From Cellvibrio sp. OA-2007 (GTDB lineage Bacteria; Pseudomonadota; Gammaproteobacteria; Pseudomonadales; Cellvibrionaceae), in the NCBI RefSeq assembly GCF_000953825.1, contig NZ_BBUL01000089.1, positions 62,001 through 126,000 on the forward strand: a stretch of 64,000 nt of DNA, given 5' to 3'. Made by a program: the position numbers and the translations under genes. Shown piece by piece: positions 40,260-63,267 of this stretch (position 1 is the first letter of the stretch; each line of letters opens with the position of its first letter). The notes beneath the pieces are model-generated. The model worked only from the letters and a program-made list of their open reading frames with translations. It had not been told where the DNA came from and ran no database searches.

Positions 40260-40387
40260 CAAGATATTAATACCTGAGTATAGTAAAACACTCGTCGAGT
40301 TTGTTTTCTGAGCACAGCGACGATGGATGAAAAACCAGAGCAAGCAATAATCAATAACTAGAACCTGTAATCTCCAAGGGTAATCAC

Positions 40388-43300
40388 ATGAAACAAAACA
40401 CGTCACACCTGACTACACCCCTGTTTACCAAAACCCTGTTAAGCGCGCTTATCGCCCTAAGCGCTAGCGGTGCTTACGCGCAAGACAACACTGCGCCAGG
40501 TGCCGTCGAAGAGGTATTGGTCACCGGGCAATTCCAGCGCAACTTGCAAAACGCGCTGGATATCAAACGCAACTCAACCACGATTGTCGACGGTGTTTCT
40601 GCCGATGATATCGGCAGCTTGCCCGCTCTCGATATGGGTGAAGCCCTGCAAGCAGTAGCCGGTGTACAACTCAACCGCGAAGGTGAGCGCCGCGAATCCA
40701 GTGTGAACTTGCGCGGCCTGCCTGCAGGCTTTGTGTTGACTACCGTTAACGGTCAGCAAATGGCAACGCCGACCCGCGTGAACAACCTCGAGTCCAGCCC
40801 CTTTGGCGCCGCCTCACCACTGGGCGCATTTGACCCGGCTGTATTCAGCGGCATTCAAGTGATCAAGACCACTACCGCAAACATGATTGAAGGCGGTATT
40901 TCCGGCACCATCAATCAAGCCGTAGGTGGTGCGCTCAAACAGCGCGATGGCAAATATGTAGTCTCCATCGCCAACCGCTACGAAGATTTGGAAGAATCAA
41001 ACGATCCGGAAATTGTACTGAGCGCGTCCAAACACCTAATTGCAGATACCTTGGCAGCCACAGCTACCTTTGCCACCTCTGACCAAACCTTCCGTCGCGA
41101 CACCATTAAAATCAACCAATACAACGATTTAACCACTGGCAATTTCCGCGGTGCCAACGGTGAAACACTGGCGGCCTGGAAAACTGCAAATGGCTTAAAC
41201 GCCAATGACACAGTGCAAATTCCCGGCGAATTGCGCCAGGGTTCAGAAATCAGCGAAGGTAGCCGCACCTCTTTCTCTGGTGGCCTCGAGTGGCAAACCA
41301 CTGACGCCCTGAAGCTGGGCTACAACCTGATGTATACCAATCGCGATATGGATCAGAACACCCAGCAAGAACTGGATCTGCGCCCGCGCACTTCTGGCAC
41401 TCGCATCACCCCCCTGTCAGCGCCATTTGCGACCGGTAAAGATGCTACTTCAGGCGGTAAACTCTACAGTGTCAGCGACATCGCTTTTACTAATGTGCAG
41501 TACGGCGCAACCTCGCGCATTTATGATCTTCAGGAGGAATCCGTCGCTCATATTTTTGATGCTGTCTGGGAGCTTGACCGTTGGACATTGGATGCAAAAG
41601 CGACACTTTCCAACTCGGAAAGTGTGCAAAGTGAAGTTTTCTTTTCGCCCACCTACCGTGTAGCAAGCGGCGCCAATGGCAACAATGGCATTAGCGGCAC
41701 GCTGATGACCGGACGCGGCGAAATAGGCAATTTTGATGTGTCACTTACCGGTGCCGGCAAGAGTGCCAGCGACTCGCTCAGCCTGGATCAAGCCTGGGTA
41801 AACAGCAATGCACTCTCAACCGGTGCGGACGTGGCATCTGCTGCCCCCAACTTAATCAGAACCACCCTCACTGGTTCCTATCGCAAGCTGGAACTGGAAA
41901 ACAATGCCGCCGAAGCCAATGCCAAATACATGATTGAAATGGGTCCATTGGAAAGCGTTCAATTTGGCGGCCGCTACTCAACCGAGTCGCAAGACTTTGT
42001 TAACTTGAGAAACTCACCTGCGGGCATTAATTTCAGTGGTATTTACAACAACTCGGTAAAAACCAATCCGCACTACTACAGCAATGGCGCCAGCAGCTTT
42101 TTTGGCGGCGAAGCACCCGGTTTTGCCGGCCCGGATCAAGGCTGGTTTGCAATTGATGTCGATAAATTACTGCCGCAATTGACGGCGACTATCGATATCA
42201 GCAAGGTCGCCCCACTGAATGGTGAACAACCTGTGATAGTACCTGGCACCGGTTTGGTACAACGCGCCGGTCAGCAAACTGCATTCCCCGCTTACCAAGC
42301 GGATATAGACACAGTTGCGCTCTACGCCATGTCTGATTTTAAATTCGAGATGGGTAATATTCCGGTTGCATTGAATGTTGGTGCGCGCTGGTTGACCTCC
42401 GATGTAAGCTCACGCGGATTGCTGTTTAAAGTCGGTCAGCCAATAGATCAATCAACAGAAGTTGAAAACAAAGACGACTACAACTTCTTATTGCCTAGCC
42501 TGAACGCCGGTTTCGATTTAACCGACGATTTAAAACTGCGTTTAGCTTACAACCAAACCATCGTGCGCCCGAACATCGCCACCGTAAGCCCGTTGACCAC
42601 TGTACGTGAACTCGACGGCGCCACCGGTTCAATTGATGTGCGTCTGTCCGGTGCGCAACTCGAACCACTGCAAGCAGAGTCGTTTGATTTGTCATTAGAG
42701 TGGTACAACCGCGAAGGCAGCTCCGTTAGCCTTGCACTGTTCCGCAAAGATATCGATGGCTACTTTGCCAATGTGAATTTCTGTAACGAACCTATCTTGC
42801 GTAAATACGGCATAGATTCAGAAACCGTGGGTGCATTGACCTACTCTAACGGCGAATGTACCACCCCGGAACTAACCCCCGGCTTGCCAACAACAGGTCA
42901 ACCAAAGCCAGTTACCATTAATCAGCTGCAAAACTCTGATGAAACCTCTGTGCTGACCGGCGCTGAATTGTCGATCCAACAAAACCTGAGCTTCCTGCCT
43001 TATCCATGGGATGGTTTGGGTGGTGTGATTAACTACTCGCGTATTAATCAGGACGACGACGAACTGACCACCAATAAAATTGTGGGCATTTCTGAAGGCA
43101 CTACCAACCTGATTGTTTACTTCGAACAGGGTGATGCAGGTGTGCGCCTCTCCTACAACTACAGAACCGAATACGATCTGGAAAGCACCAACGCAATTGC
43201 CGGTGTTGGCACAGGCTTTAACGGTGCAGGCGATAAAAGTGTGAAAGCAGCAGGCCGTTTGGATTTGTCTGCCTACTACAAAATCACCGATGACTTAACC

Positions 43301-43426
43301 ATCAACTTTAAAGCCTACAACCTGACCGATACGTTGTATGAAGAGTATCAAGATACTGAATACCAACCACGCGCAACCCACTACGATGGCAAAACCTACG
43401 TATTGCAAGCGAAGTATCAGTTCTAA
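40388..43426 (+). CDS. TonB-dependent receptor (carbohydrate uptake type)
   Basis: This large outer-membrane transporter has 1012 residues. The signal peptide ends ALSASGAYAQ (~32). The TonB box region is EEVLVTG, and the plug domain (~45-180) has DIGSLPALDMGEALQAVAGVQ and REGERRESSVNLRGLP. The rest is a 22-strand-type barrel ending in YVLQAKYQF with a terminal Phe. The length and the plug style (VDGVSADDIG) are those of the large receptors that import oligosaccharides in marine and soil polysaccharide degraders. Its neighbours (lyases, GH105, UxuA) suggest uronate-containing oligomers as substrate. A terminator follows. Confidence 0.93.
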   Translation: MKQNTSHLTTPLFTKTLLSALIALSASGAYAQDNTAPGAVEEVLVTGQFQRNLQNALDIKRNSTTIVDGVSADDIGSLPALDMGEALQAVAGVQLNREGERRESSVNLRGLPAGFVLTTVNGQQMATPTRVNNLESSPFGAASPLGAFDPAVFSGIQVIKTTTANMIEGGISGTINQAVGGALKQRDGKYVVSIANRYEDLEESNDPEIVLSASKHLIADTLAATATFATSDQTFRRDTIKINQYNDLTTGNFRGANGETLAAWKTANGLNANDTVQIPGELRQGSEISEGSRTSFSGGLEWQTTDALKLGYNLMYTNRDMDQNTQQELDLRPRTSGTRITPLSAPFATGKDATSGGKLYSVSDIAFTNVQYGATSRIYDLQEESVAHIFDAVWELDRWTLDAKATLSNSESVQSEVFFSPTYRVASGANGNNGISGTLMTGRGEIGNFDVSLTGAGKSASDSLSLDQAWVNSNALSTGADVASAAPNLIRTTLTGSYRKLELENNAAEANAKYMIEMGPLESVQFGGRYSTESQDFVNLRNSPAGINFSGIYNNSVKTNPHYYSNGASSFFGGEAPGFAGPDQGWFAIDVDKLLPQLTATIDISKVAPLNGEQPVIVPGTGLVQRAGQQTAFPAYQADIDTVALYAMSDFKFEMGNIPVALNVGARWLTSDVSSRGLLFKVGQPIDQSTEVENKDDYNFLLPSLNAGFDLTDDLKLRLAYNQTIVRPNIATVSPLTTVRELDGATGSIDVRLSGAQLEPLQAESFDLSLEWYNREGSSVSLALFRKDIDGYFANVNFCNEPILRKYGIDSETVGALTYSNGECTTPELTPGLPTTGQPKPVTINQLQNSDETSVLTGAELSIQQNLSFLPYPWDGLGGVINYSRINQDDDELTTNKIVGISEGTTNLIVYFEQGDAGVRLSYNYRTEYDLESTNAIAGVGTGFNGAGDKSVKAAGRLDLSAYYKITDDLTINFKAYNLTDTLYEEYQDTEYQPRATHYDGKTYVLQAKYQF

Positions 43427-44949: not shown

Positions 44950-46149
44950 ATGCAAGAAACCTGGCGCTGGTTTGGCCCCAACGACTCCATCTCGTTAGAG
45001 AAAATTATTCAAGCCGGTGCGTCCGGCATTGTCAGCTCATTGCATGAGATTCCAACTGGCGAAGCTTGGCCATTGGACGCTATTCAAGCGCGCAAAAAAA
45101 TCATTGAAGATGCGGGTCTTGAGTGGTCAGTGATCGAAAGTATTCCGATGCACAATGACATCAAAACCCGCACCCGCAATTTCCAGCGCTATATCGACAA
45201 TTACAAAGAATCGATTCTCAATGCGGGCAAAGCGGGCGTTAAAGTGGTGTGCTACAACTTTATGCCAGTGGTGGATTGGACGCGCACCAACCTCATGTAT
45301 TTGCTGCCCAATGCCAGCCACGCACTGCGTTTTGAGATGACTGACTTTGCCGCTTACGATGTCTACCTGCTACAACGCGCAGGTGCAGAGGCAGATTATT
45401 CGCCACAGGTTATGGCGCGCGCTAAAGAGCGCTTTGATGCCATGAGCGATGAAGAAAAAATCTTGCTGGAAAAAAATATTATTGCCGGTTTGCCCGGCGG
45501 TGAAGGTTCTTACACGCGCGATACTATACGCGCCGCCATCCAACAATTTATCGACCTCGGTACCGAGGGCATGCGCGAACACCTGTTCCAATTTTTACGC
45601 GAAATTATTCCGGTGGCCGAAAGTGTCGGCGTGAAAATGTGTATTCACCCGGATGATCCGCCGTTCTCTCTCTTCGGCTTGCCACGCGTAGTCTCTACCG
45701 CTGATGACGCGCGTAAAATTTTGCAAGCAGTGCCCAGTGAGTCCAACGGTTTAACCCTCTGCGCTGGCTCCTATGGAGCACGTGGTGATAATGACCTAGT
45801 TGCTATGGCCAATGAATTTGGCCCGCGCATTTACTTCGTGCACTTGCGCAATGTCACTCGTGAAGAAGATGGTTCGTTTTTCGAAGCGGAACATTTGAAT
45901 GGCGATAACGATATGGTTGGTCTAGTGAATGCTTTGCTGTGTGAAGAACGCCGTCGTAACAAAGCAGGTGAAAGTAATTTTTGCATTCCCATGCGCCCCG
46001 ATCATGGCCATTTAATGGGTGATGAAATAGGCAAAGCCGATGTTAAACCAGGTTACTCCTATGCAGGCCGCATGAAAGGTTTGGCAGAGTTGCGCGGTGT
46101 TATCCACACACTGGAAACCTTGCAAAAAAGAAACTCTCTGGCCCTGTAA
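44950..46149 (+). CDS. uxuA: Mannonate dehydratase
   Basis: UxuA dehydrates D-mannonate to 2-keto-3-deoxygluconate in glucuronate breakdown. It has 399 residues, close to the E. coli enzyme. The N-terminus MQETWRWFGPNDSISLEKIIQAGASGIVSSLHEIP is diagnostic. The metal-site region follows: MCIHPDDPPFSLFGLPRVVST (~234-254), NGLTLCAGSYGARGDNDL (~270), YFVHLRNV and MRPDHGHLMGDE near the C-terminus. It acts after a UxuB-type reductase (60592-62079) and before KdgK (62326-63267), all in this window. An AGGGTAGG site precedes the ATG. Confidence 0.97.
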   Translation: MQETWRWFGPNDSISLEKIIQAGASGIVSSLHEIPTGEAWPLDAIQARKKIIEDAGLEWSVIESIPMHNDIKTRTRNFQRYIDNYKESILNAGKAGVKVVCYNFMPVVDWTRTNLMYLLPNASHALRFEMTDFAAYDVYLLQRAGAEADYSPQVMARAKERFDAMSDEEKILLEKNIIAGLPGGEGSYTRDTIRAAIQQFIDLGTEGMREHLFQFLREIIPVAESVGVKMCIHPDDPPFSLFGLPRVVSTADDARKILQAVPSESNGLTLCAGSYGARGDNDLVAMANEFGPRIYFVHLRNVTREEDGSFFEAEHLNGDNDMVGLVNALLCEERRRNKAGESNFCIPMRPDHGHLMGDEIGKADVKPGYSYAGRMKGLAELRGVIHTLETLQKRNSLAL

Positions 46150-46233: not shown

Positions 46234-47397
46234 TTATTGCGCGCGAATTTTTAGAAACTTACAACCATTCGATGGCTCAATTTTTACTTTAGTGCCGGTG
46301 ATATTGGTTGCCGCCTCATAGTTATCCGGCACATTCAACACACCACTACCATCGATAGAAATGACATTCCCTCTGAAATCACATGCACTATTAGCATCGC
46401 TATCCCACACCGCCAGAGTTTTTCCGGCAAGGCTTGCATCAAATTGCACGCAGTTGGTATTGGTGATATTAACTTCGTGAGCTGTACCCGTCGTTAAGGC
46501 CAAACACTGGCTACTGGTCGCACTTGAGCTGGAACTCGAACTACTCGTTGAACCTACTTGCCCGCTCATGCCGATGGATTTAGTGGAGACAATAAAATCA
46601 TCAAAGCTGGCGTATACATCTTTTTTCGGTTGCCATTGAGCCTGTGGTGCACTTGAACCGCCAAAGAAAGTAGAGAAAAACAAGTGATTAATTTTGGTAG
46701 CGCTTTGGCCTGCAGCACGCACACCAGAGTTATCGGAATCGTCACACACCAATTGACCGTCCAACCAACCTTGTAAAACTCCGTCACGCTTGCCAGGTGA
46801 GTTTAATTTTTGCCGAATTTCAATGTGATGCCATTTACCGGTAGTCACACTCGCGTGGTAGCCTGCGGTGTCCCAAAATACACGATAAGGTTCAGCACCA
46901 CTGCTGTTGTTGATTTGGTAACCGTGTAGATAAAATTCCAACTTGCCGTTTTCACGCCACATCAAACGAGTACTAAACCCGCTGCTGCCATAGGGAAAAT
47001 CGGTACTACCACCCAAGCCAGGTAATTTACCGCCTTTAACAAAATCAAAACCGTTTTCAAATTTAACCCAATAAGACATATAAAGCTCATCGCCACGGTA
47101 GCCAATATCGGTTTCCCAGGTGGCACCGCTCGGTGTAGATTGATTACCAAAGGCAGGGTATTTGATTGTCGCCGCCTTGCCTGTGTGGCCACCGGCAATT
47201 ATTTTTACTCGCCCATCATCTGGGCCCTTGGCGTAGCGTGTACTCCAGCTTGTTTTTATATCTTGATCACTAGCATTACCGAGCGCCAAACCTTCAAACC
47301 CATTGGAATAAATAACCTGCGCGCTTACCAGACTTGCAGTAGAAAATAACACGCCAAGCATGACGGAAATACTGTTGCTGAAATAGCTATTTTTCAT
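46234..47397 (-). CDS. Secreted PL14-like polysaccharide lyase with shared C-terminal module
   Basis: The 387-residue protein starts at ATG 47397, which has a GAGAGGG site; the frame is open 17 codons further upstream without family sequence. A signal peptide ends at ASLVSAQ. The catalytic jelly roll (~30-260) has YRGDELYMSYWVKFENGFDF, KGGKLPGLGG, LMWRENGKLEFYLHGYQ and GKWHHIEIRQKLN, typical of the PL14 domain (alginate or glucuronan lyases). A serine run (~270-290) links to the C-terminal module (residues 298-387), which has Cys at TNCVQF, WDSD and CDFRG. This copy is the most diverged of five and ends in KIRAQ. It is the last of six co-directional secreted-enzyme genes. Confidence 0.85.
   Translation of the reverse strand: MKNSYFSNSISVMLGVLFSTASLVSAQVIYSNGFEGLALGNASDQDIKTSWSTRYAKGPDDGRVKIIAGGHTGKAATIKYPAFGNQSTPSGATWETDIGYRGDELYMSYWVKFENGFDFVKGGKLPGLGGSTDFPYGSSGFSTRLMWRENGKLEFYLHGYQINNSSGAEPYRVFWDTAGYHASVTTGKWHHIEIRQKLNSPGKRDGVLQGWLDGQLVCDDSDNSGVRAAGQSATKINHLFFSTFFGGSSAPQAQWQPKKDVYASFDDFIVSTKSIGMSGQVGSTSSSSSSSSATSSQCLALTTGTAHEVNITNTNCVQFDASLAGKTLAVWDSDANSACDFRGNVISIDGSGVLNVPDNYEAATNITGTKVKIEPSNGCKFLKIRAQ
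46237..46506 (-). other. C-terminal four-Cys module, copy 1 (PL14-like protein)
   Basis: This ~90-residue domain is shared with four other enzymes in the cluster. Key residues are C...NCVQF...LAVWDSD...CDFRG...GSG...GCKFLKIRAQ. The first Cys context (CLALTTG) differs from the usual CASYI. Confidence 0.75.
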
Positions 47398-47464
47398 TGT
47401 TACCCTCTCAGAATAGATTAGAACTACCTGACCACAGCCGAGATTCAAGTAGTTCTATTTATGA

Positions 47465-50056
47465 TTAATAGATTCTAACTTTAATGAATTTGCATGAGTT
47501 ACCAGTTGCGTTAATCAATTTTATATCCGTTCCCTTCAATGAATTAGTCGAAACATAGTTCTCGGTAATGGTAATAAAACCTGAACCGGCAACCTCTGTA
47601 GCCGCGCCGCGAAAATCACAGTCATTTTGGTCGCTATCCCACAACTGCAATGTTTTACCTGACAAATTTTGAGCAAAACGCAAACATGAATCTTTTGTTA
47701 ATGCCACCTCGGTGCGCACATTAAATGGAATGTTAATAAATGATGCACAATGATTAGCGGATGGCGCAGAACTATTGCTAACACTAGACGCGGGAGCAGA
47801 TGACAAGGGGGCCTTAACATTGACTGAGCGCGTGTCGGATGTTACTTGGGTACCGTCCTGCGCAATCAACAGAGCATCAATGACATAGCTACCCGTTTGT
47901 GTCGGTATCCATTCAACAGAGTAAGGCGCATCACTGTCTTGTTTTAAAAATTGTCCGTTAACACGGAAAACAATTCTATTGATACCTATTAAGTTGGTAA
48001 AAGCATTTGCAGTTAAGGTTACCGGATTGTTTAATTGAAGCTGGCTGTTATTCACAGGCGTACTCATTGATACAGATAACTGCGGCGCAACCACACTCAC
48101 TGTACGTGAATCAGATATCAGCCGGGTGCCATCATTGGTAATTAACACTGAGTCAATCGTATAGCTACCAGCTTGCTCTGGACGCCATTGCGCACTGTAA
48201 GGCGCCGAACTATCTTGTGACAAATATTGTCCATTGATACGAAAGTTAACCTGAGCAATATTGTTTTTACTACTAGAGGCGTTTGCAGTCAAAGTAACAT
48301 CCTGCCCCAACACAAACTGACTATTGTTGCTTGGTGAACTTATGGCAATCGAAAGAATCGGGGCGGTGACTGCAACTGATTTTGTGTAACATTTTTTTGC
48401 TGTTTTGGGTGAAGGATCACCAAAGGTTATATTATTGCATGTGACGTCACTGGTCTGCTCATAGAGATAATTGAAAAGGCCTTTTGCACCATAGGCAACA
48501 TTCATAACACCAGAGACTTTTACTGTTTCATTTTCATTAGCCGCAAATGAATAGCCTTCTGGGGCTTGATCAATGTCGCCCAATCCTAAATCAATAATCT
48601 GTACATGCAAGGGTAATTTTGTGCTATCGCCTTTATCTTGCAAATAGTAGTACACCTTACCCTGATGAATTGTTAATACTCCATGATCAAATTGAGGCCC
48701 TTTGGTATCTTCATAAACAGTGTTGAAATTATTAGTGCCCCCCTTTCCTTTTTCGATAAAAGGTCTTCCGTTTTTTAGTCCGATCAGATAAACACTGTCT
48801 CCATAGGTATAAAGATTATGCCCGCCTGTAAATTCTGTAGTGTGGATAAAATCTGAAGCGCCTGCTGGCTTATAAGAATGTAAGTTTTTAGTTACATTAA
48901 ACTCTTTGTCTTTGACAGTGCTAACAATATGAACATCGCCATTTTCAGTCACTGTAAAATCAAAGCCGCCAACAATATAGACCTGATTAGGTTTTGTAGT
49001 TTTAACCAAATCACCTGGTTCATATATTTTTAATGGTTGAGGATTTGCAAACGGAATGGTAATCCCTTGGCCTTTATGGTTTTTCCATTGGGTCTTGCCT
49101 GATTGGTCATCAGAGTAAGCGTAATAAATTCCATTTTGATATTCGAATTTATCATTGTTATCTGCGCTGCGAACTTGAAATGCGGTACGTAATTTTCCAT
49201 TGACGTATTTCATTTCACCGTAAAGACCCCAGTTGTGCTCTGGTCCACCTGGTTTTTGGCTAGAATTAATATGGTTAAATTGGGTCATATTTGCCCATTT
49301 TCCGGTTGCCGAGTTGTAGCTGGTAAACACATAGCCACCATTATTATTTCCACCCGTTCGCATGAAAAATAATAAATCGTTATTTTCATTCAAAAAAAAT
49401 GTTGGATAGGTTAGATCTGAGAATTGACTGGGATCATTCTGACCATTCAAGTTATTGTGGCCATAATCATTGGGTTCATCTGCGACAAATATATCTAAGG
49501 TAAAATCTTTATCTGAAACTGTCGCCGCATTAGTTTTGGTATAAGCGTAACGGAAATAGTCATTATTAAACTGCGAATTACTGTATGAGTGCATATCATA
49601 CAGAATATGAATTTTTCCATCTTTTGGTGATATGCCCACCGCAGCAGTATTGTGCGATTCACCAATCCACGACTGACCGTTGTAACCGGTATGTCTATGG
49701 GGGAACTCAATAGTTTTTACTACACCAGTTTTAGTATTGTAGCGCGACAACATTAAGTTCCGCTCACCCTTACCGCCCTTATACCAAGTTGTAAAAATAA
49801 AATCCTCATGAACTTTAATCGCATCGCCATGCGCAGAAATAGACCTACCAAATGCATAATCCATGACATTGGGGTTGTTTTGATTGGGAGAATCGCTCTT
49901 GCGTTGAATACCATTAAAGTAAAGACCAACATCACTGACTTTGTATTGCTGCTCAAAAGTTACTGCAGCGTTTACCTCTGTCAATGAAAAAAACATCGCA
50001 ATCAATGTCAGCATAGAAAGCCATCGATTTGGAAAAATCTTCGTTTGTATTGTCAT
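47465..50056 (-). CDS. BNR-type beta-propeller lyase-like enzyme with two Ig domains and C-terminal module
   Basis: This 863-residue secreted protein has a signal peptide ending FSLTEVNAA (~31). Residues ~32-510 form a BNR_4-type propeller (SWIGESHNTAAVGISPKDGKIHILYDMHSY near 135, then GGNNNGGYVFTSYN, PGGPEHNWGLYGEMKYVNGKLRTAFQ), the fold seen in ulvan lyases of PL24/PL25. The conserved His and Tyr in these blocks suit a lyase, but family and substrate are uncertain. Two tandem Ig-like domains (~565-656 and ~657-748) share the motif NGQ(Y/F)L(S/K)QDS(S/D)APYS. A serine linker and the C-terminal four-Cys module (770-863) follow. An RBS, GAGGAAA, precedes the ATG. Confidence 0.8.
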   Translation of the reverse strand: MTIQTKIFPNRWLSMLTLIAMFFSLTEVNAAVTFEQQYKVSDVGLYFNGIQRKSDSPNQNNPNVMDYAFGRSISAHGDAIKVHEDFIFTTWYKGGKGERNLMLSRYNTKTGVVKTIEFPHRHTGYNGQSWIGESHNTAAVGISPKDGKIHILYDMHSYSNSQFNNDYFRYAYTKTNAATVSDKDFTLDIFVADEPNDYGHNNLNGQNDPSQFSDLTYPTFFLNENNDLLFFMRTGGNNNGGYVFTSYNSATGKWANMTQFNHINSSQKPGGPEHNWGLYGEMKYVNGKLRTAFQVRSADNNDKFEYQNGIYYAYSDDQSGKTQWKNHKGQGITIPFANPQPLKIYEPGDLVKTTKPNQVYIVGGFDFTVTENGDVHIVSTVKDKEFNVTKNLHSYKPAGASDFIHTTEFTGGHNLYTYGDSVYLIGLKNGRPFIEKGKGGTNNFNTVYEDTKGPQFDHGVLTIHQGKVYYYLQDKGDSTKLPLHVQIIDLGLGDIDQAPEGYSFAANENETVKVSGVMNVAYGAKGLFNYLYEQTSDVTCNNITFGDPSPKTAKKCYTKSVAVTAPILSIAISSPSNNSQFVLGQDVTLTANASSSKNNIAQVNFRINGQYLSQDSSAPYSAQWRPEQAGSYTIDSVLITNDGTRLISDSRTVSVVAPQLSVSMSTPVNNSQLQLNNPVTLTANAFTNLIGINRIVFRVNGQFLKQDSDAPYSVEWIPTQTGSYVIDALLIAQDGTQVTSDTRSVNVKAPLSSAPASSVSNSSAPSANHCASFINIPFNVRTEVALTKDSCLRFAQNLSGKTLQLWDSDQNDCDFRGAATEVAGSGFITITENYVSTNSLKGTDIKLINATGNSCKFIKVRIY
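47468..47749 (-). other. C-terminal four-Cys module, copy 2 (BNR protein)
   Basis: This 94-residue module starts CASFINIPFNVRTEV and contains SCLRF, LQLWDSDQNDCDFRG, GSGFITITENY and SCKFIKVRIY. It is clearly homologous to the copies at the ends of the GH5 and both beta-helix proteins. Confidence 0.85.
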
Positions 50057-50161
50057 AATTTCCTCTATTCATTTTAATAAGCTAACAAAACCCAAGTGAA
50101 CGGCAGAGTTCATCTACTAAGCAGCAGAAATTGCTAAAGGTTATTTTTTAAAATTGAAAAA

Positions 50162-50189
50162 TCTGGGGCGCTTAACGCCCCAGAAAAAA
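50162..50189 (-). terminator. Terminator after the CBM2 protein gene
   Basis: TCTGGGGCG-CTTAA-CGCCCCAGA is a 9-bp perfect stem just past the stop codon at 50202, with flanking A/T runs. It separates the three upstream enzyme genes plus this one from the BNR and PL14 genes. Confidence 0.85.
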
Positions 50190-50201
50190 CGCCACCACAA
50201 G

Positions 50202-51767
50202 TTAATTGAACTTTGCGCCAGTGACATACAGAGTAGTGGTACCGTCATGTTTATCGTCATCAGCTTCTTGACGATAAAGACCCCAGCGCCAACCATAAAC
50301 AGAAGCATTACTTTCTAATGTAGGTTGAGGATGATCTTCTGCAATAACTCGTGTGCAGTTGTACCACACCTCGAATTTAAACCCGTTTGATCTAACCCGT
50401 AAGTTAAAGGGCTTACGCATCATGCCGGTATCGAGCTCAATGGTTCCTTTTCCTCTACGAGCAATTTCAAGTGAACCATCTACAGCGATAAGCCCCTGAA
50501 TAATAAAGTTACTGGCATCATTGGTTTTTATTTGAAATATCGCGTATCGCTGCGCTTTATCCCAACCACTCAAATAATAATTTGCACTAAATTCATGCCA
50601 GGTAGACCCATTTGCACTGCGAGTCCAAGGCGTTGCATAAGCTTCTACCCGTGGGCGTAATATTGACGAGGTAGTATTTTGATTGCCTTCATGCAATTGA
50701 AAGCGCTGGGTATTTCCACTTTCGGTGTACCACTCAGCAAAATCAGGGAAATCAGGGCGCTCAATCGATTTATCTAAAATGGTGTGAATTTTAATGTTTT
50801 GCGGAATACCATTATCTGCATTGCTGCAGCTAGATGGAGGCTGAGGAACATCACTATTGCTTTTGGCTAGATCAATGTAATCAATGTTGGTTGCACCATC
50901 GACAAACTCGACCGTTAATCGCGTATTGGAAGCAATATTTATACTGCTAATTTTTAATAATTCCCAACTGCTCCAACCGCCGCCACTAGTCGTAACCGTG
51001 CCCAATAATTTTCCATCGGCCAGTAGTTTAATGCGTTTTCCGGCATCGCGACTGGCCACTCGTAAACTCACATCGTAGCGCCCATCAGCATTGCCGATTG
51101 CATAGTCCAAGGTTTCTCCAGCACTGGTCCAGCCAACCAAACAACCGTCCGCATTAGCGGCAACATCAACATCTAAACCGTAATAAGTACATGCAAAAGG
51201 ATCAGGATTGGAATTCCCTGGGCTTAAATCATAAGCGTTGTTGTATTTTTCTGCTTCAATACGACCAGGCAGATTAAACCGGCCGGTATAACCAGTGGGT
51301 GCAAGGCTTGATCGAGAGCTGCTCGATAGTGCCACACTGGATTTGGAACTACTGGAAGGTGCCACGCTGGATTTGGAACTGGAACTGGTAGCTGTTGCGC
51401 CGCACACGCCACCACTTAGAATTGGCGTTTCTACTGCACCACCATTTTTAAGACCTTTGTACCCAAAAGAAACTGAACCGCCTGCTGCAATATTGCTGTT
51501 GTAGCTGACATTTGTCGCGGTGTATGGATTACTGCCTGTAATTGTGGCGCTATAAAAACTCGCAATGGTGTTGGTTGCATACTTAATAGATAGCGACCAA
51601 CCATTAATATTTGTTGCGCCATTATTGGTAATAGTCACTGTCGCGTTGTAACCGCTCGACCATTCTTTATCAACTGTGTAGCTACAAATTGCCGCAGAAG
51701 CTTGCACAGATGAAAAACTCAAAAGAGATAACACAGAAAAAAATACTGCCTTGTATAGTTTAAGCAT
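50202..51767 (-). CDS. CBM2 - CBM6/35 - jelly-roll lyase-like enzyme
   Basis: This 521-residue secreted protein has a signal peptide to ~26 (SSVQASAA). Residues ~27-125 are a CBM2 (CSYTVDKEWSSGYNATVTITN ... GWSLSIKYA), usually cellulose-binding. A serine linker (~128-160) has two near-identical units. Residues ~163-305 are a CBM6/CBM35-type module (GRIEAEKYNNAYDLS ... GWTSAGETLDYAI ... DGATNIDYIDLAKS). Residues ~315-521 are a jelly-roll domain (FQLHEGNQNTTSSILRPRVEAY ... NLRVRSNGFKFEVWYNCTRV) resembling small lyases, perhaps PL20 glucuronan lyase, which is uncertain. It is the only one of the six clustered enzymes without the four-Cys C-terminal module, and the only one with known CBMs. Confidence 0.75.
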   Translation of the reverse strand: MLKLYKAVFFSVLSLLSFSSVQASAAICSYTVDKEWSSGYNATVTITNNGATNINGWSLSIKYATNTIASFYSATITGSNPYTATNVSYNSNIAAGGSVSFGYKGLKNGGAVETPILSGGVCGATATSSSSKSSVAPSSSSKSSVALSSSSRSSLAPTGYTGRFNLPGRIEAEKYNNAYDLSPGNSNPDPFACTYYGLDVDVAANADGCLVGWTSAGETLDYAIGNADGRYDVSLRVASRDAGKRIKLLADGKLLGTVTTSGGGWSSWELLKISSINIASNTRLTVEFVDGATNIDYIDLAKSNSDVPQPPSSCSNADNGIPQNIKIHTILDKSIERPDFPDFAEWYTESGNTQRFQLHEGNQNTTSSILRPRVEAYATPWTRSANGSTWHEFSANYYLSGWDKAQRYAIFQIKTNDASNFIIQGLIAVDGSLEIARRGKGTIELDTGMMRKPFNLRVRSNGFKFEVWYNCTRVIAEDHPQPTLESNASVYGWRWGLYRQEADDDKHDGTTTLYVTGAKFN

Positions 51768-51886
51768 AAAATTTTCCTCGCAACGTTATTGGGCATGTGA
51801 ATTGATCGCGCAATCTAACCAAGCACCCAACAAAAACAGCGCTGTCAAATACTTGGTTATTACTGACCAGCAGGAATTTTTTCGTA

Positions 51887-53275
51887 TTAATAGGCGCGTA
51901 CTTTTACATACTTGCAGGAATTTCCGGCCGCGTTAGTCAACTTAATATCAGTGCCAGTAAAACCAGTGCCCGATACATAGTTTGAAGTGATGCTCAAACT
52001 ACCTGATCCACCAACCGCAGTTGCGGTACCGCGATAATCGCAAGATGTATTGGTATCGCTATCCCAAACTTGTAAGGTTTTACCGCTCAGGTTTTGACTA
52101 AAGCGTAAGCAAGCACCAGCAGACAAAGTCACTTCAGTGCGCGTATCAAATGCAACAGGAATATAACTTGCACAGCTCCCTGTTGCTGGTGCTGAAGATG
52201 AGCTTGAACTGCGCACAGAGCTTTGTGCTGAACTAGGAGTCGAGCTGCGTACCGAGCTTGCAACAGAGGATGAACTACGCGAAGAAGTAGTTCCTGCCAC
52301 TGGCCAATTGCTGATGATATTTTTTGCTAATGCACCTGAAGCAGTTAATTGGTTAGATGGCCAACTGCCATTAGCACTTGCGCCGGGAACTAACGCAGAT
52401 GCGCCTTCAGATTTATCATTCAATGCCCAGTTTGCATTGCTGATTTTATTGTCTTTCATAAACTGCACCCAGGCATTGGTTTCGCTATTTGCGACACTGC
52501 CATTGCCATCGGCATTTACTGAACCCCATTCAGTCACAAATAATGCAATGCCATTATTTAATGCTGTCTGTGCTTTATCGCGTAAATATTGCGTGTGAGT
52601 ACCGGCGTAAAAATGCAAGGTGTAAGCAATATTGCTGTAGCCGGTAATCGGGTCACGGGATGCAACATCGACATCCTGAGACCAGGTTGGGCTGCCCACA
52701 ATAATTAAATTATCTGGATCAATACGGCGAATAGCGGCAATAACACGTTCAGCATAGGGCTTTACCTTTCCTGCCCAGGTCACATCATTTTTGGGCTCGT
52801 TAAATATCTCGTAAATCACGTGATTTTTATTGCCATAGGTGCGCGCCATATCTTCAAAAAAAGCAATAGCTTGCGCTTCATAGTTATGTGCGTAGTGCGA
52901 GTGCCAATCAATAATCACATACATGTCATTGGCGATAGCAGCATCCACCACGGTTTTTACTCGGGTTTTGTTCGACGCATCAGAAATATATCCGCCGTTT
53001 TCTTCAACCCCCATAGCGGCGCGAACCAGTGTGGCATTCCAGTCGTTTTTCAGCCACGCAATAGCATTAGCGTTGTAATACTTTTCGCCACCCCAGCCTG
53101 TGTTGCTCCAGAATAAACTCATCCCGGAAAAACTGGCGACCTGACCATTTGCCAAAATTTTTGTGCCGCTCACCGACAAGGGCGCAACATCAGCATTTAC
53201 CGAACCCACAAAACCACCGAATAACATCGCCGATACTAAACATGCACTGCGAGCTTTGCTCATAATTGTTTTCAT
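51887..53275 (-). CDS. GH5 endo-beta-1,4-glucanase (GH5_2-like) with shared C-terminal module
   Basis: The 462-residue secreted enzyme has a signal peptide ending FVGSVNA (~28). The GH5 TIM barrel covers ~35-330. The acid/base Glu is in [16 protein letters not shown] (~160) and the nucleophile in [15 protein letters not shown] (~248); the His/Trp in [12 protein letters not shown] also fits. This subgroup normally cuts cellulose or related beta-1,4-glucans. A serine linker ([21 protein letters not shown]) leads to the four-Cys module (~368-462). A cellulase amid lyases suggests attack on a composite cell wall rather than one purified polymer. Confidence 0.9.
51890..52174 (-). other. C-terminal four-Cys module, copy 3 (GH5)
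   Basis: This 95-residue module contains [52 protein letters not shown] and [10 protein letters not shown]. It is closest to copies 2, 4 and 5. Confidence 0.85.
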
Positions 53276-53336
53276 TTTTTACTCTCCTGCGAGAAAAATT
53301 ATTCTTAGTAACATTCATGACTCAACTAAGAGCCTA

Positions 53337-55661
53337 TTAATAGGCTCTAATTTTTAAATAGTTACAGTTAGATCCCGCTGCTGCGGTTAATTTAAAAATG
53401 CTGCCAGACAAATTATTGGCAGTAGCGTAGTTGCTAGTGATGCTCAGATTGCCGCTGCCATTGACTGACGTCATGGTGCCGCGATAATCGCAAGATGTAT
53501 TAATCGCACTATCCCACACCTGCACATTGGCTCCGGCGAGACTGCGATCAAAGCGAATACAGCTTGATGGTGTTAGCGTAATTTCTGCCCGTGTATTCCA
53601 TGGCACATCGATATAACTTGCGCACCCACTCACCACACTGGATGCAGCAGAAGACACCGAGCTAGAAGACCGACTTGAAGAACTAGTCGCTGGAACAGAA
53701 GAAGGCACAACTGAAGATGCGGCAACTGATGAAGGTGCAATCGATGATGCAGCAACTGATGAAGGCGCAACCGATGATGCAGCAACTGATGAAGGCGCAA
53801 CCGATGATGCAGCAATTGAAGAACTGGCAATGCTACAACTTATACTGGCGCCACCAGGCAATAGACTGGTGCCAGCGTAATTACAATTTGCATTAATACC
53901 TACATTTGGATTCGCAATATAATTTTGTGTTTCCTGGTGAGTCCAGGTTGATAGCGGAATCCCATTCAGCGCCAAATGCTCCCAACCATTACCAGCGCTA
54001 GTCGCACGATTCCAGCCGAATTGATAAATCGTATTGTTATTTGCACCATAGGGCGCGTAAGTAGTAAAGGCAGCACCAGCTGTTAATTGTTTTTTCATGG
54101 TATTGCGAAAGAAAACATTTTGCGGACCGGTTGCACCAGACCAACCACCAGCGTGCTCACCAGCAGCCCACCAAATTGGATACCAGGTGCCTGAATCATC
54201 ACCCACCACGCAATTTGGATTGCAATCGCGATGATAAAAAGAAATATTGGAAATATTATTTTCTATCAGGTTGTGACGTTCCCAACCACCGTGCAAATTA
54301 ATATCCGCATCGACATTATTACCGGTTACCACATTGCCCGATGCCGACCATTGCAGGGTCAAATGACGCAAACTGCGCAGCGTATTATTTTTAATGGTTG
54401 AATCCCACAACTTACTATTGCGGAAATAGCCATTGCCGCCCTTGCCCTTATTCCATGAACCTTCGAGATAATTATTTTCAAATTGTAGATTTTTCGCCAT
54501 TTCGGTCACAATCGGGTGCGAGCCAGTCATATAGGTGCGAATATTGCGCGCATAGCTATTCAACGCCCATTTAAAAACAAGCCCATTGATCGCGCCGTTA
54601 TAATCGAGATTGTTGTAATTATTTAACGCATCAGCCGCGGTGAGATTGCCCGGCGCTACTTGTGTTAGATAGAAATTTTCAAAGCCTACCCCCTCTACCA
54701 TAGTCAACACCGCCACCCGGCTATTGTAAGTACCGGAAATAGGCGCCGAACCGTCGGCTGTACTATTCATTGGCAAATCAAATTCGAGCGGCTTATCGAT
54801 AGTGATGGTTTTATTAGTTGTATCCACCGCAACAATTTTAAAAATTTGTTGCCGCATATGCATATTTAAACGATCAGCAGACAATACGCCTTGTTGATCG
54901 TACATCTTGTTAGTGTTGGCTGCGCCAACCCATGCATACTTACCTGCGCTAAAACCTGCAACAGAATTGATTTTTATTTTTGTATCACCTTGCGCCGCGT
55001 TTTGCGTTACGTTCTGATGCTTCCAGTGAACATTCACTGTGCCCTCGTAAATATCTTTACGATTTTCAGGCGCGTTGGCGTAAGCGGTGGCATAGCTTGA
55101 GTGGACATCGCGCGTTTGCACACGAAATGCGCCACGCCCTGGCCATATCCAACCGCCGTTGCCACCGCCTGCATCGGTCATTCCCGCAAGATCAAAATCG
55201 ATAATATTGTCATAGCGAGTATTACTGTCAGGGTTAAAAATTATTTTGGTTGCGGTACTCGATGCAGGATCACTGCCCTTGCCGCGAATGACTAAATAGT
55301 TGGCATCTACGTGAATCTCTTTGGAAATATTCAGACTACCTGAAGGCAACTCAATGAGGGATAAGTTGTTGTAGCTGCCCGCACAGTTAGCGCGAACAAA
55401 ATCAATCGCCTGCTGCAGACCTTGGCTGTCATCCACATTGTCATTAGCATACACAGCAAACTGTTGCCCTAATTCAGCAGAAGTAATTACACAGTTTGTA
55501 TTAGTGGTAATTTCACTTGTAGCAGGTAAGGGCAGACCTTCTCGGTAGCCAGCCTTACTCCAATCCGGTAAAAAATTGGCTTGCACGGGAACAGCGAACA
55601 CGCAGAATGCGGCCGCCACTAGAGGCAGCCATTGGCCGCCTCTAAGGTGGATATTACTCAT
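53337..55661 (-). CDS. Right-handed beta-helix secreted protein with shared C-terminal module
   Basis: This 774-residue secreted protein has a signal peptide ending AVPVQANF (~29). Its start (DSQGLQQAIDFVRANCAG, LIELPSGSLNISKEIHVDANYLVIRGKG) is like pectate-lyase-3/GH55-type beta-helix enzymes, in which rungs follow a small N-terminal motif. Later rungs are rich in Asn (FENNYLEGSWNKGKGGNGYFRNSKLWDSTIKNNTL ... NVVTGNNVDADINLHGGWERHNLIENN). I cannot assign a catalytic family. A long serine/alanine/valine linker (~610-680), built from a 30-bp nucleotide repeat, precedes the four-Cys module (680-774). Its role as a polysaccharide lyase or hydrolase is inferred from fold and neighbours. Confidence 0.8.
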   Translation of the reverse strand: MSNIHLRGGQWLPLVAAAFCVFAVPVQANFLPDWSKAGYREGLPLPATSEITTNTNCVITSAELGQQFAVYANDNVDDSQGLQQAIDFVRANCAGSYNNLSLIELPSGSLNISKEIHVDANYLVIRGKGSDPASSTATKIIFNPDSNTRYDNIIDFDLAGMTDAGGGNGGWIWPGRGAFRVQTRDVHSSYATAYANAPENRKDIYEGTVNVHWKHQNVTQNAAQGDTKIKINSVAGFSAGKYAWVGAANTNKMYDQQGVLSADRLNMHMRQQIFKIVAVDTTNKTITIDKPLEFDLPMNSTADGSAPISGTYNSRVAVLTMVEGVGFENFYLTQVAPGNLTAADALNNYNNLDYNGAINGLVFKWALNSYARNIRTYMTGSHPIVTEMAKNLQFENNYLEGSWNKGKGGNGYFRNSKLWDSTIKNNTLRSLRHLTLQWSASGNVVTGNNVDADINLHGGWERHNLIENNISNISFYHRDCNPNCVVGDDSGTWYPIWWAAGEHAGGWSGATGPQNVFFRNTMKKQLTAGAAFTTYAPYGANNNTIYQFGWNRATSAGNGWEHLALNGIPLSTWTHQETQNYIANPNVGINANCNYAGTSLLPGGASISCSIASSSIAASSVAPSSVAASSVAPSSVAASSIAPSSVAASSVVPSSVPATSSSSRSSSSVSSAASSVVSGCASYIDVPWNTRAEITLTPSSCIRFDRSLAGANVQVWDSAINTSCDYRGTMTSVNGSGNLSITSNYATANNLSGSIFKLTAAAGSNCNYLKIRAY
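53340..53624 (-). other. C-terminal four-Cys module, copy 4 (beta-helix protein)
   Basis: This 95-residue module contains [42 protein letters not shown] and NCNYLKIRAY. Confidence 0.85.
53691..53810. repeat. 30-bp tandem repeat encoding the Ser-Ala-Val linker
   Basis: Four 30-bp units run from 53691 to 53810 with a partial fifth. The units at 53751-53780 and 53781-53810 are identical. On the minus strand each codes ten residues of the type ASSVAPSSVA. This is a coding minisatellite whose copy number can vary without a frameshift. Confidence 0.9.
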
Positions 55662-55744
55662 AGAAACCTCGTTATTAATTATTGGTGTGGTAAAAAATAC
55701 TACTGAGCGGTTATCAATAACTCTATTTACAGAGTTATAGAAAA

Positions 55745-57229
55745 TTAATAAGCGCGCACTTTAATGTAATTACAACTGCTTCCAGCAGCATTGCTAAATT
55801 TCAAAATAGTTCCGCTTAACGAACTGGCTGCTAAATAGTTGCTATTAATTAGCACACTGCCTGAGCCATTAACCGATGCGGCAGTACCGCGATAATCGCA
55901 AGAGCTATTGGTGTCGCTATCCCAAAACTGCACAGTCGCGCCGCTGAGATTGCGATTAAAACGCACGCAGCTGGAGGAGGTTAAGGTTAATTCTGTACGT
56001 TGATCCCAGGCTACGTCGATGTAACTGGAGCATCCAGTTGTAGCAACTGATGAAGCAGCTGACGATTTTATTGAAGACTGCACAGAGGATTTTATCGATG
56101 ACGCAGTGGATGATTTTGGTGAAGACGCAACACTGGATGCTGTTGAAGACGTAGTTGCATTAGTAACGTAAACACCCGGCGCAGGAATGTTGGCAGGAAT
56201 ATTATTGTCGATAGATGCTGCCGACCAATTACCGGCTATGCGATCACTGCGGCCATCTAAACGTATATTATTGTTGGCAACATGATTGACACCTTCAGAC
56301 GCAAACAATAAATAATCGTTGCTGCCATCCAAATCAACCTGATTGCCGATAAATGTATTTTGATCCGCATCGCTGTGTGTCTCAAACGCATTTTTAACAT
56401 TGCTTTCGCCATTGCGATACGCTTTGTTGCCGCGAATAACTGCGTATTGGCCTTTGATATCGACAAAACTATCGGCAGAATTTTGACCGGTGATACCAAT
56501 ACCATTCATCACATTGTATTCAAAAATAGTACCGCGAGTTCCCTCTTTAATATCGATGTGTTCAGCCGCAATACCTGGGCCAATAGTATTGCCACCGATA
56601 ACATTATTATGGCAAGCCGCACCATAGACATAACCCTTGCCATCGGAAGACCCCGGATGTGAACCGACATAAAATGCTTCGCCAGTACCTGGGCTAACCA
56701 AACCCGTGTTATAAACCCGTGAATTTTTTACCAGATTATTCGAGCTGTTATCGCGCAGGTGAATCGCTTCTTCGCCTATATCGTGCACGACCACATTATC
56801 AATTACTGAATAATTGGAGTTATCCAACACTATGCCTTTGGCAGAGTTAGTGATTTCAATATCTTTTACAATCCAATAATCACCGGTGATATACAAACCG
56901 ATTTTTTTGCTGGTGGTGGTGCCGCGTAATATTTGACGATTAGTGCTGCTATAGCTGCGCAAGGTGATCGGTTTTTGCGCTGTGCCATTGGCGCTGCCAA
57001 AATAATGCGCGTTAGAAAAGCCGCTCAGTGTCGACGTAGCTTCACTTTCATAACCGCCGGGCTGCAGCACAATTTCATCACCGGCGACGGCCGCTTGAAT
57101 TGCCTGCTGCAATTCTTGCCCGCTGTATACATCAATGCGTGCCGCCTGCGACTGGGCAGCAGTTAGCAACAAAATAAAGGAGGCGCCCAGACCCAAAGTC
57201 CGGGATGAAAACGATAGGTTTGATTTCAT
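55745..57229 (-). CDS. Right-handed beta-helix polysaccharide-lyase-like protein with shared C-terminal module
   Basis: The 494-residue secreted protein has a signal peptide ending LTAAQSQAA (~29). The helix begins YSGQELQQAIQAAVAGDEIVLQPGGYE (~35-62) and runs through rungs such as YWIVKDIEITNSAKGIVLDNSNYSVIDNVVVHDIGEEAIHLRDNSSNN (~116-165) and AAEHIDIKEGTRGTIFEYNVMNG (~225). This is the pattern of chondroitinase-B/PL6/PL31-like and related lyases; the exact family is unclear. A linker of KSS repeats (~375-395) leads to the four-Cys module (400-494). It is the first gene of the six-gene minus-strand enzyme run and has operator d over its promoter. Confidence 0.82.
   Translation of the reverse strand: MKSNLSFSSRTLGLGASFILLLTAAQSQAARIDVYSGQELQQAIQAAVAGDEIVLQPGGYESEATSTLSGFSNAHYFGSANGTAQKPITLRSYSSTNRQILRGTTTSKKIGLYITGDYWIVKDIEITNSAKGIVLDNSNYSVIDNVVVHDIGEEAIHLRDNSSNNLVKNSRVYNTGLVSPGTGEAFYVGSHPGSSDGKGYVYGAACHNNVIGGNTIGPGIAAEHIDIKEGTRGTIFEYNVMNGIGITGQNSADSFVDIKGQYAVIRGNKAYRNGESNVKNAFETHSDADQNTFIGNQVDLDGSNDYLLFASEGVNHVANNNIRLDGRSDRIAGNWSAASIDNNIPANIPAPGVYVTNATTSSTASSVASSPKSSTASSIKSSVQSSIKSSAASSVATTGCSSYIDVAWDQRTELTLTSSSCVRFNRNLSGATVQFWDSDTNSSCDYRGTAASVNGSGSVLINSNYLAASSLSGTILKFSNAAGSSCNYIKVRAY
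55748..56032 (-). other. C-terminal four-Cys module, copy 5 (beta-helix lyase-like protein)
   Basis: This 95-residue module contains CSSYIDVAWDQRTEL, SCVRFNRNLSGATVQFWDSD, SCDYRG and SCNYIKVRAY. Confidence 0.85.
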
Positions 57230-57533: not shown

Positions 57534-58229
57534 CTATATTTCTTTGCCGAAATGAGCGGCAGCGGCAGCGGTGGCATTTTCAATATGAACTTTCATTGCC
57601 ATACGCGCCTTTTCTGGATTGCGCTTTTCCAAAGCTTCCACAATACGGCGATGGTCATTAATAGACGGGTGAATACCCTCTTTGCGAATGCGCTCCAGGA
57701 ACGCGGTGCTCAATGCCGATTGATTGCGCAACTCCCAGAGCCAGTTAACTACCGAATAGATGGCGCTATTTTGCGCCGCTTCGGCAATAATCGTATGAAA
57801 TTTCCAATCGGCTTTTTCGGAGGCGTCTTCCTGCTTTTCCTCTTCTTCCATCTCGCGCAGCACTTCTTTGAGCTGGGCAATCTGCTCATCAGTTATACGT
57901 GTAGCGGCCAAGGCACAGGCTTCTGATTCGAGAATATAGCGAATTTCCAATATTTCGAATGGACCAACGCCTTTGTCGGCGCTGTCCAGTGTGGGCTTCT
58001 TTTTGGTGACATAAATGCCAGAGCCGGTGCGGATTTCAATAATGCCCGACAACTCAAGCGCAATCATTGCCTCGCGAATGGTTGGGCGACTAACACCCAA
58101 TTTTTCGGCCAAATCACGCTCTGCCGGGAAGCGCTCACCTGGTTTGATGGTGCCATCGTGAACCAGCTTGGATAGCTGCTCTGCCACCTTGATATAAAGC
58201 CTATCGGTTTTAACGGCTTGTAATTCCAC
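57534..58229 (-). CDS. GntR-family (FadR/FCD subfamily) transcriptional regulator
   Basis: The 231-residue regulator has an N-terminal winged helix (~5-75): RLYIKVAEQLSKLVHDGTIKPGERFPAERDLAEKLGVSRPTIREAM, then LSGIIEIRTGSGIYV as wing. The C-terminal all-helical FCD ligand domain (~90-225) has ILEIRYILESEACALAA and the metal-ligand-type HTIIAEAAQNSAIY and DHRRIVEALEKRNPEKARMAMKVHI. Relatives such as UxuR, ExuR and LldR sense uronates or other organic acids. The start is GTG at 58229 after GGTGAGGG; no ATG fits. Its position between a lyase gene and a binding-protein gene, both with the 19-bp box, makes it the best candidate for the operator-binding repressor. Confidence 0.9.
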   Translation of the reverse strand: MELQAVKTDRLYIKVAEQLSKLVHDGTIKPGERFPAERDLAEKLGVSRPTIREAMIALELSGIIEIRTGSGIYVTKKKPTLDSADKGVGPFEILEIRYILESEACALAATRITDEQIAQLKEVLREMEEEEKQEDASEKADWKFHTIIAEAAQNSAIYSVVNWLWELRNQSALSTAFLERIRKEGIHPSINDHRRIVEALEKRNPEKARMAMKVHIENATAAAAAHFGKEI

Positions 58230-62079: not shown

Positions 62080-62113
62080 TAGAAAAATCCCGCAAAGTTA
62101 ATATAACAACACA

Positions 62114-62136
62114 TTTACAATGACCAGCATTGTAAA
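62114..62136. promoter_or_regulatory. Perfect palindrome between uxuB and kdgK
   Basis: TTTACAATG-ACCAG-CATTGTAAA has 9-bp perfect arms and a 5-bp centre. It lies 34 bp upstream of the uxuB start codon. It is unlike the 19-bp boxes and probably binds a different regulator. I found no second copy in the window. Confidence 0.5.
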
Positions 62137-62325
62137 CCTGCCTATAAATTCATGACATCTTATTCACAAGAAAAAGACAATTTTTAATGGATCAAATTCT
62201 TCTATAACTTATTTATTTCTACTTTTAACCTTGTAAGAGTGATATATTTTGCGCTGATTTTACTCATGCAAAATATTCAATCCCTAGATTAAACACATCG
62301 AACATTTTAATTCCGGAATACTCAA

Positions 62326-63267
62326 ATGGCACACATAGCAGCAATTGGCGAAGTTATGGTGGAGCTTGCTCCCTTTCCTACTGCCGACAACAATGGCCGC
62401 GAAATTATGGCCTTATCTTTTGCAGGCGACACCTATAACACTTCGGTGTATATGGCGCGACTGGGTTTAACAACTGACTACGTTACTCAACTGGGTGAAG
62501 ACCCTTATAGCGAACAAATTATGCAGCGCATGGCTAATGAAAATATTGGCACCGGCATGATTAAACAACTGCTAGGAAGATCACCTGGCTTATACATTAT
62601 TCGCAACACCCCCGATGGCGAGCGCGAATTTTTCTATTGGCGCAAAGAGGCGCCTGCACGTGAACTATTTGCCTCGCAAGAAGCTGCCGATCAACTCTGC
62701 CAACAGTTAGTAAACTGCAACTGTGTTTATTTAAGCGGTATCACGCTCGCGATTATCGGTGAGCAGTCGCGCGAATTTTTGTATAACAGTTTGCGCAAGC
62801 TGCGCGAACAAAAGGTGCTGGTGGCTTTCGATAGCAACTATCGCCCACGCCTATGGCGCGATAAGGACGAAGCGCAACAGGCGATGCTGGCAATTATGCA
62901 ACACACGGATATCGCATTGCTGACACTGGATGACGAGCAACTCTTATGGGGCGACGATAGCGTTGCAGGCTGCAAACAGCGCTACGCAAAATATAACCTG
63001 AGCGAACTGGTATTAAAACGCGGCGCTGAAGATGCAATTATCATTACCCCTGCCACAGAAATTCGCGTCCCCGTTCCACCAGTACAAGGCGTTATTGATA
63101 CCACGGGCGCAGGCGATACCTTTAATGCCGGTTATTTAGCAGGACGCCTGATGGGGAAATCATTAGAAGATTCCGCCAAACAAGGTATTCGCTGCGCGGG
63201 CATTATCATTCGTCATCGCGGTGCAATTATTGATAAGGCTATTTTTGATAAAGAACTTGGCGCATAG
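62326..63267 (+). CDS. kdgK: 2-keto-3-deoxygluconate kinase (PfkB family)
   Basis: KdgK phosphorylates 2-keto-3-deoxygluconate to KDPG for the Entner-Doudoroff aldolase. It has 313 residues. The N-terminus IAAIGEVMVELAP, FAGDTYNTSVYMARLG (~31-46), VAFDSNYRPRLWRDKDEA (~166-183) and the PfkB signature DTTGAGDTFNAGYLAGRL (~260-277, catalytic Asp in GAGD) are all typical. It is the last step of the uronate branch in this window (UxuB, UxuA, KdgK); the matching aldolase gene (eda) is not present. It is divergent from the uxuB-like gene. Confidence 0.94.
   Translation: MAHIAAIGEVMVELAPFPTADNNGREIMALSFAGDTYNTSVYMARLGLTTDYVTQLGEDPYSEQIMQRMANENIGTGMIKQLLGRSPGLYIIRNTPDGEREFFYWRKEAPARELFASQEAADQLCQQLVNCNCVYLSGITLAIIGEQSREFLYNSLRKLREQKVLVAFDSNYRPRLWRDKDEAQQAMLAIMQHTDIALLTLDDEQLLWGDDSVAGCKQRYAKYNLSELVLKRGAEDAIIITPATEIRVPVPPVQGVIDTTGAGDTFNAGYLAGRLMGKSLEDSAKQGIRCAGIIIRHRGAIIDKAIFDKELGA

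Follow-up and report, generated by a model that had tools for sequence, protein, structure and literature searches.

In the present study, a 64,000-nucleotide stretch of the genome of Cellvibrio sp. OA-2007 (contig NZ_BBUL01000089.1; hereafter the window, whose gene annotation covers positions from 28,879 rightward) was analysed, and a small C-terminal module common to five of its enzymes is described. The module forms the C-termini of five minus-strand open reading frames, at 46234, 47465, 51887, 53337 and 55745 (Table 1). The last 93-98 residues of these proteins gave an alignment of 98 columns, 25 of them invariant, with pairwise identities of 42-64% over 80-97 residues (E 9e-23 to 4e-47). 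Leave-one-out profiles, searched against the 312 frames of the window, recovered every omitted copy (E 1.1e-26 to 3.4e-45) and gave zero matches at E 10 or better against 1,560 shuffled frames, so that chance or low-complexity similarity was ruled out. The catalytic parts of the five enzymes, compared with each other, gave no match better than E 0.37. The initial annotation, made from the letters of the window, had proposed a common module with four invariant cysteines on five enzymes with unrelated catalytic parts, and all of this is borne out.

Table 1. Module copies, enzymes and neighbouring genes in the window
Feature	Position	Strand	Evidence or remark
Module copy 1, 93 residues	46237..46515	-	end of PL14-type lyase
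PL14-type polysaccharide lyase + Ser-rich linker + module	46234..47448	-	Pfam Polysacc_lyase_14 E 9.4e-33; PDB 5gmt E 4.8e-12
Module copy 2, 97 residues	47468..47758	-	end of PL24-type ulvan lyase
PL24-type ulvan lyase + second small module + two Big_7 + module	47465..50056	-	PDB 6byp E 9e-157; Pfam BNR_4, Big_7
CBM2 + CBM6/35 + C-terminal region of ~210 residues, no module	50202..51767	-	Pfam
Module copy 3, 98 residues, the modelled copy	51890..52183	-	end of GH5 cellulase
GH5 cellulase + Ser-rich linker + module	51887..53275	-	Pfam Cellulase E 5.2e-66
Module copy 4, 98 residues	53340..53633	-	end of BH-A
BH-A, large enzyme + long Ser/Ala/Val linker + module	53337..55661	-	no Pfam match, no PDB match
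Module copy 5, 98 residues	55748..56041	-	end of BH-B
BH-B, PL31-like lyase + Ser-rich linker + module	55745..57229	-	alginate lyase 6kfn E 8.9e-68
GH2, Alginate_lyase-family lyase, GH88, DUF4861, TonB-dependent receptor	33475..43426
UxuA, D-mannonate dehydratase (glucuronate catabolism)	44950..46149	+	Pfam UxuA E 2.2e-120
GntR/FCD regulator	57534..58229	-
Mannitol dehydrogenase-family (UxuB-like) and PfkB-family sugar kinase (KdgK-like)	60592..63267		exact roles presumed

The catalytic families proposed earlier for the enzymes at 46234 (PL14-like) and 51887 (GH5) agree with Pfam, as does the description of the sixth enzyme in the run as a protein without the module that carries CBM2 and CBM6/35. 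The BNR propeller seen at 47465 is matched by BNR_4, and the identity of the enzyme could be sharpened to a relative of PL24 ulvan lyases. Its PDB match 6BYP is labelled PL24, and a C-terminal extension which is not conserved is described for one PL24 enzyme, alt76_04188 (PMC6431674). Two further enzymes had been read as beta-helix types. The first, at 55745 (BH-B), matches the alginate lyase 6kfn, which we take to belong to PL31, and scores 25.8 bits against Pfam Beta_helix, just below the cut-off of 25.9. For the second, at 53337 (BH-A), the beta-helix was not confirmed, since the protein has no Pfam or PDB relative and a model built from three sequences reached a predicted local distance difference test (pLDDT) score of 34.7 and was not used. 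For the PL14-type gene, the listed TTG probably lies upstream of the true start; by eye, a signal-peptide-like beginning is visible at an internal ATG.

Four cysteines, WDS, GSG, NY and K.R near the end are invariant in the five copies, and CD(F/Y)RG is present in 5/5. Of the motifs listed in the initial annotation, WDS, CD(F/Y)RG and NY thus hold throughout, and the 46234 copy departs from the others, with CLAL for CxSYI, NCVQF in place of SCxRF and V for I in GSG..xIxxNY. Exactly four cysteines were counted in 47/47 aligned copies, and a wider count including a few upstream residues gave four in 55/57 stretches; the exceptions are L113, a short stretch with three cysteines, and L107, in which one more cysteine lies within the added residues. 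From this pattern, two disulfides are plausible. In the numbering of the 51887 copy, R51 is conserved in 46 of the 47 copies, Y69 and R96 in 41 each, W40 in 40 and K94 in 38, and the polar residues D41, S42 and N68 are also conserved. Conservation together with strand alternation points to W40, R51, Y69, K94 and R96 as a candidate binding surface.

Library searches gave the module no name. Pfam showed no match over it in the window proteins, and NCBIfam, searched with the six window proteins, gave QH_gamma overlapping it in two of them (E 0.11, 12.4 bits against a cut-off of 50). The 47 copies alone gave scattered weak Pfam matches, the commonest being DUF4156 (9/47, best E 0.00089), for which the one whole-protein score seen, 20.2 bits, lies below the cut-off of 28.9; sub-threshold matches to Cthe_2159 were found in 2/47 copies. 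In sequence searches of the PDB with the 5-copy and 47-copy profiles, no convincing relative was found, and the best match, 5coz (E 0.022), is partial. PADLOC on one copy gave no match, in the viral data no structure matched at E 0.001 or better, and the published literature surveyed, in listings and abstract openings, contained no description recognised as this module. The earlier statement that no named family matches therefore stands at the Pfam and NCBIfam cut-offs and for PDB sequences, a scope outside which lie families of carbohydrate-binding modules (CBMs) that have no Pfam model.

The partners of the module were surveyed in 50 stretches (the window, three loci from a pattern scan and 46 others) holding 58 copies in 57 frames, with types assigned by BLASTP at E 1e-8 against one reference each and with Pfam on 19 representatives. 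An enzyme partner was assigned in 54/57 frames and belongs to one of eight types, namely BH-A (17 frames), BH-B (15), PL14 (6), PL24 (6), GH5 (4), BH-C (4), GH9 (1) and an alginate-lyase family (1), of which six are known families and BH-A and BH-C lie outside them. The module is thus joined to diverse carbohydrate-active enzymes (CAZymes). Of the three frames with no assigned partner, those of L016 and L113 adjoin a BH-A piece in another frame, and that of L114 is a frame of 157 residues. A BH-A gene split over different frames ahead of the module was observed at L016:4272-6291 and L113:6934-8750 (Vibrio maritimus, G1618). Several related enzymes in module-bearing loci do not carry the module. 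The position is strict, with 57/58 copies at most three residues from the stop, the exception being the leading copy of the tandem pair in L059; the module ends in strands of the K(V/I)R(A/V)Y type, and neither a hydrophobic stretch with a basic tail nor a sortase-like signal was found in the copies.

For the isolated module (51887 copy), a compact fold was predicted with a pLDDT of 94.2 and a predicted template modelling score (pTM) of 0.84, and the model thus predicts independent folding. In the comparison with CBM folds suggested in the initial annotation, CBM81 was top-ranked by one aligner, tied with collagenase-type collagen-binding and pre-peptidase C-terminal domains (1nqj, 5sv5). The latter occur on collagenases and not on CAZymes, and no match to their family was among the Pfam matches listed for the 47 copies. 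CBM81 (CBM_E1) is represented by the structures 5klc, 5kle and 5klf. Two GH5 genes and one BH-B gene are direct neighbours in genome G490. One of the GH5 enzymes (L049, 3426-5363), with a catalytic part 69% identical to that of the window GH5, carries at its terminus, instead of the module, a domain matching CBM81 5klc over its full length (E 3.6e-4), whereas the BH-B and the second GH5 bear the module. Therefore, one kind of enzyme can bear either of two domains that are similar in size. With a CBM81 profile, CBM81-type domains were detected in 14/144 genomes of the same bacterial family and not in the genome of the window, and nothing lies behind the domain in 18/20 copies extracted from this family. 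CBM81 and the module are alike in C-terminal position, length and GH5 partner, but the CBM81-like copies lack WDSD, CD(F/Y)RG and the KVRAY end and have no significant sequence relation to the module. Profile comparison with hhalign gave a probability of 22%, from a weak local match in the region of the second cysteine and of the tryptophan; a second comparison gave 7%, with 3/200 permuted controls equally good, and 10/200 were equally good when the four-cysteine subset of CBM81 was used. Because these comparisons are weak against permuted controls, the module is not filed in CBM81.

With regard to occurrence (all counts include the source genome wherever it was searched), exactly five copies were found in its 97 contigs with the five-row profile at E up to 1, all of them in this cluster. 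The module was present in 1/21 genomes of the genus and in 17/144 genomes and 6/32 genera of the family. The order sample gave 2/390, both from the family, the class sample 2/369, and the phylum sample 3/398, consisting of the source genome, G1086 and one weak match; the family of the Glaciecola genome gave 5/246 and that of G1086 5/197. Two weak matches, G260 (a frame of 86 residues, among the two of the class sample) and G1068 (53 residues), were treated as chance. When a collection of 84,980 species was scanned with two short peptide patterns, five loci were obtained, three in Vibrio and one each in Glaciecola and Microbulbifer; two plasmid records of Vibrio pelagius bear the module, and no relative was confirmed in the viral contigs searched. 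Given that these genome sets are samples and that the pattern scan has low sensitivity, the module may also occur beyond Gammaproteobacteria. Eight divergent copies on six partner types were observed in genome G491, which is 84% complete (L073-L078, L081, L082).

The history of the module was examined with a tree of 57 rows and 96 columns, a small number of columns, in which many forks are unsure. At least 21 changes of partner label are needed on this tree, the least possible number being 8 and the mean for shuffled labels 34.1. In the window, the modules of GH5 and PL24 are sisters (99/95), as are those of BH-A and BH-B (97/90), and these sister modules sit on catalytic parts without detectable relation. 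The PL14 copies stand mostly together across genomes (5/6). Thus, the module has mostly been inherited with its enzyme and has also been passed between neighbouring genes, through duplication and fusion or through conversion. Such exchange of tails among neighbouring unrelated enzymes makes the shuffling of modules within one gene cluster tractable for study.

The gene neighbourhood, with UxuA, UxuB-like, KdgK-like, GntR/FCD, GH2, GH88, Alginate_lyase, DUF4861 and TonB genes, is such that this region may be read as dedicated to a polymer that contains glucuronate. Two small proteins (43505-44377 and 58438-59343), without a Pfam family and alike by eye, flank the cluster and may be periplasmic solute-binding-like. 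The context was searched by TBLASTN (E 1e-15, 40% coverage) in 49 loci, the window left out, with 17 proteins from the window and a Vibrio pelagius plasmid, of which the kinase, KduD and the symporter represent generic families. KduD-like genes were matched in 15 of the 49 loci, UxuB-like in 13, GH88 in 10, UxaC-like in 10 (several at 25-27% identity) and UxuA in 8. The window set of uxuA, uxuB, kdgK, GH88, GH2, DUF4861 and GntR is complete in eight loci (L050-L053, L055-L057, L061), each centred on a module-bearing BH-A gene, and Vibrio-family loci show recurring but variable combinations of uxaC, kduD, a KdgM porin and a second lyase. Because BH-A has no relative in Pfam or the PDB and lies in a conserved locus of glucuronate type in eight other cases, it is a candidate for a new polysaccharide lyase family. 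In Ulva walls, cellulose occurs together with ulvan, xyloglucan and a glucuronan (PMC8307928); among these polymers, or in alginate, the assigned partner types would find a fitting substrate.

Herein, we propose that the module represents an undescribed family of carbohydrate-binding modules and tethers its enzymes to the wall, a proposal we consider fairly probable. The module, unnamed in the searched libraries and well conserved, is most likely a CBM, and this is the best, if partly, supported of the interpretations, because of the linkers, the eight CAZyme-like partner types, the tandem copies, the tied fold match to CBM81 and the CBM81-like replacement on GH5. We infer ligand binding, ligand identity and disulfide pairing as follows. 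A small beta domain, probably stabilised by disulfides, would form the extreme C-terminus of secreted enzymes, joined to them through a flexible linker, and would hold cellulases and lyases of uronic-acid polymers on the same insoluble wall. The ligand would most likely be a beta-1,4-linked glucan, a glucuronan, or both, within a matrix of cellulose and uronan like that of green algae or plants, and the released oligomers would be imported and then metabolised by the neighbouring glucuronate pathway where such genes are present. Several results weigh against this proposal. The first row of the Foldseek comparison is an unrelated chain, only 23/49 loci show any queried context gene and 26/49 none, and the strict C-terminal position would also suit sorting or retention.

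This last point leads to the idea of a C-terminal export or surface-retention domain, in which the secretion machinery or a partner on the outer surface recognises the folded module and no substrate is bound. In addition to the position, module-less relatives of PL24 (L053:11013-13718, L056:10713-13367) and BH-A (L063:11464-13557) end, by eye, in a Gly-rich, hydrophobic and basic tail resembling a membrane anchor. However, the module itself has no such tail or sortase-like signal, several related enzymes of the same loci and the window protein at 50202 dispense with it, the GH5 relative has a CBM81-like domain in its place, the CBM81-like domains of the family are just as C-terminal, tandem copies exist in L059, and only one genome of the genus contains it. 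We regard this explanation as unlikely. A divergent CBM81 member, which would make the module a remote subfamily within an already named family instead of a new family, appears improbable as well; its place among the best structural matches, the shared length, position and GH5 partner and the weak local profile match would favour it, but the fold match is tied, the profile scores barely exceed those of permuted controls, and the CBM81 profile finds nothing in a genome with five module copies. A passive stabilising domain, guarding against proteolysis by its cysteines and the Ser-rich linker without binding anything, would agree with the constant four cysteines and the compact predicted fold and is nevertheless very improbable, since D41, S42, R51, N68, Y69, K94 and R96 are in our judgement conserved beyond the needs of a spacer, the assignable partners are all CAZyme types, and the module is exchanged between neighbouring genes.

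The proposal of a CBM that tethers enzymes to the wall and perhaps has two ligands is based on the conserved aromatic and basic residues and on a partner pattern like that of CBM113, the closest precedent. CBM113 (UKD), from the flavobacterial GH5-PL31 enzyme CelAly, is reported to bind insoluble cellulose through a plane of tyrosines and perhaps alginate through Arg/Lys, with homologues on cellulases and lyases, and is thus, like the module, one non-catalytic domain common to cellulases and uronan (alginate) lyases (PMC13235733). The partners GH5, GH9, PL14, PL24, PL31-like and the alginate-lyase family resemble those of CBM113, which is a likeness of partners and not of descent. Further points of likeness are the reported nine strands of CBM113 (9KVN) and the cysteines that bound it (Cys884-Cys1010). 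Unlike the module, CBM113 is a domain of about 127 residues, located internally ahead of a Por sorting domain and reported as nearly confined to Bacteroidota (PMC13235733). 9KVN was not among the matches of the 47-row profile at E 1 or better, its presence in the searched set not having been checked, and it was absent from the best 50 listed matches in either fold list. The ulvan-binding domain of a Nonlabens ulvan lyase is likewise non-catalytic, placed behind the lyase and able to bind the polymer, but is followed by a Por secretion signal (PMC5361163; compared by description). A more specific and quite tentative version of our proposal is a new gammaproteobacterial family of dual specificity, in which W40 and Y69 would face beta-1,4-glucan and R51, K94 and R96 a uronate polymer such as glucuronan, an independent counterpart of CBM113 with copies passed between neighbouring genes; the whole wall-degrading gene set would then carry the same hook. 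If the module is a CBM, a family unnamed in the searched libraries and linking cellulases with uronate-polymer lyases would be added, which would bear on how bacteria dismantle mixed cellulose/uronan walls, and the module, compact at 98 residues, might be a candidate for probing glucuronan or the walls of green algae.

Two other regions of the cluster were observed. First, the C-terminal ~210 residues of the 50202 protein (50205-50834) had no significant match in Pfam or the PDB, and a distant relative of this region shares the L111 stretch with a module-bearing gene. Second, residues ~499-565 of the PL24-type protein form another small module of ~62 residues with two cysteines (AANENE...NVAYGA...FGDP), which has no Pfam match and is common to PL24, GH9 and BH-C enzymes in L070, L071, L053, L056 and L115.
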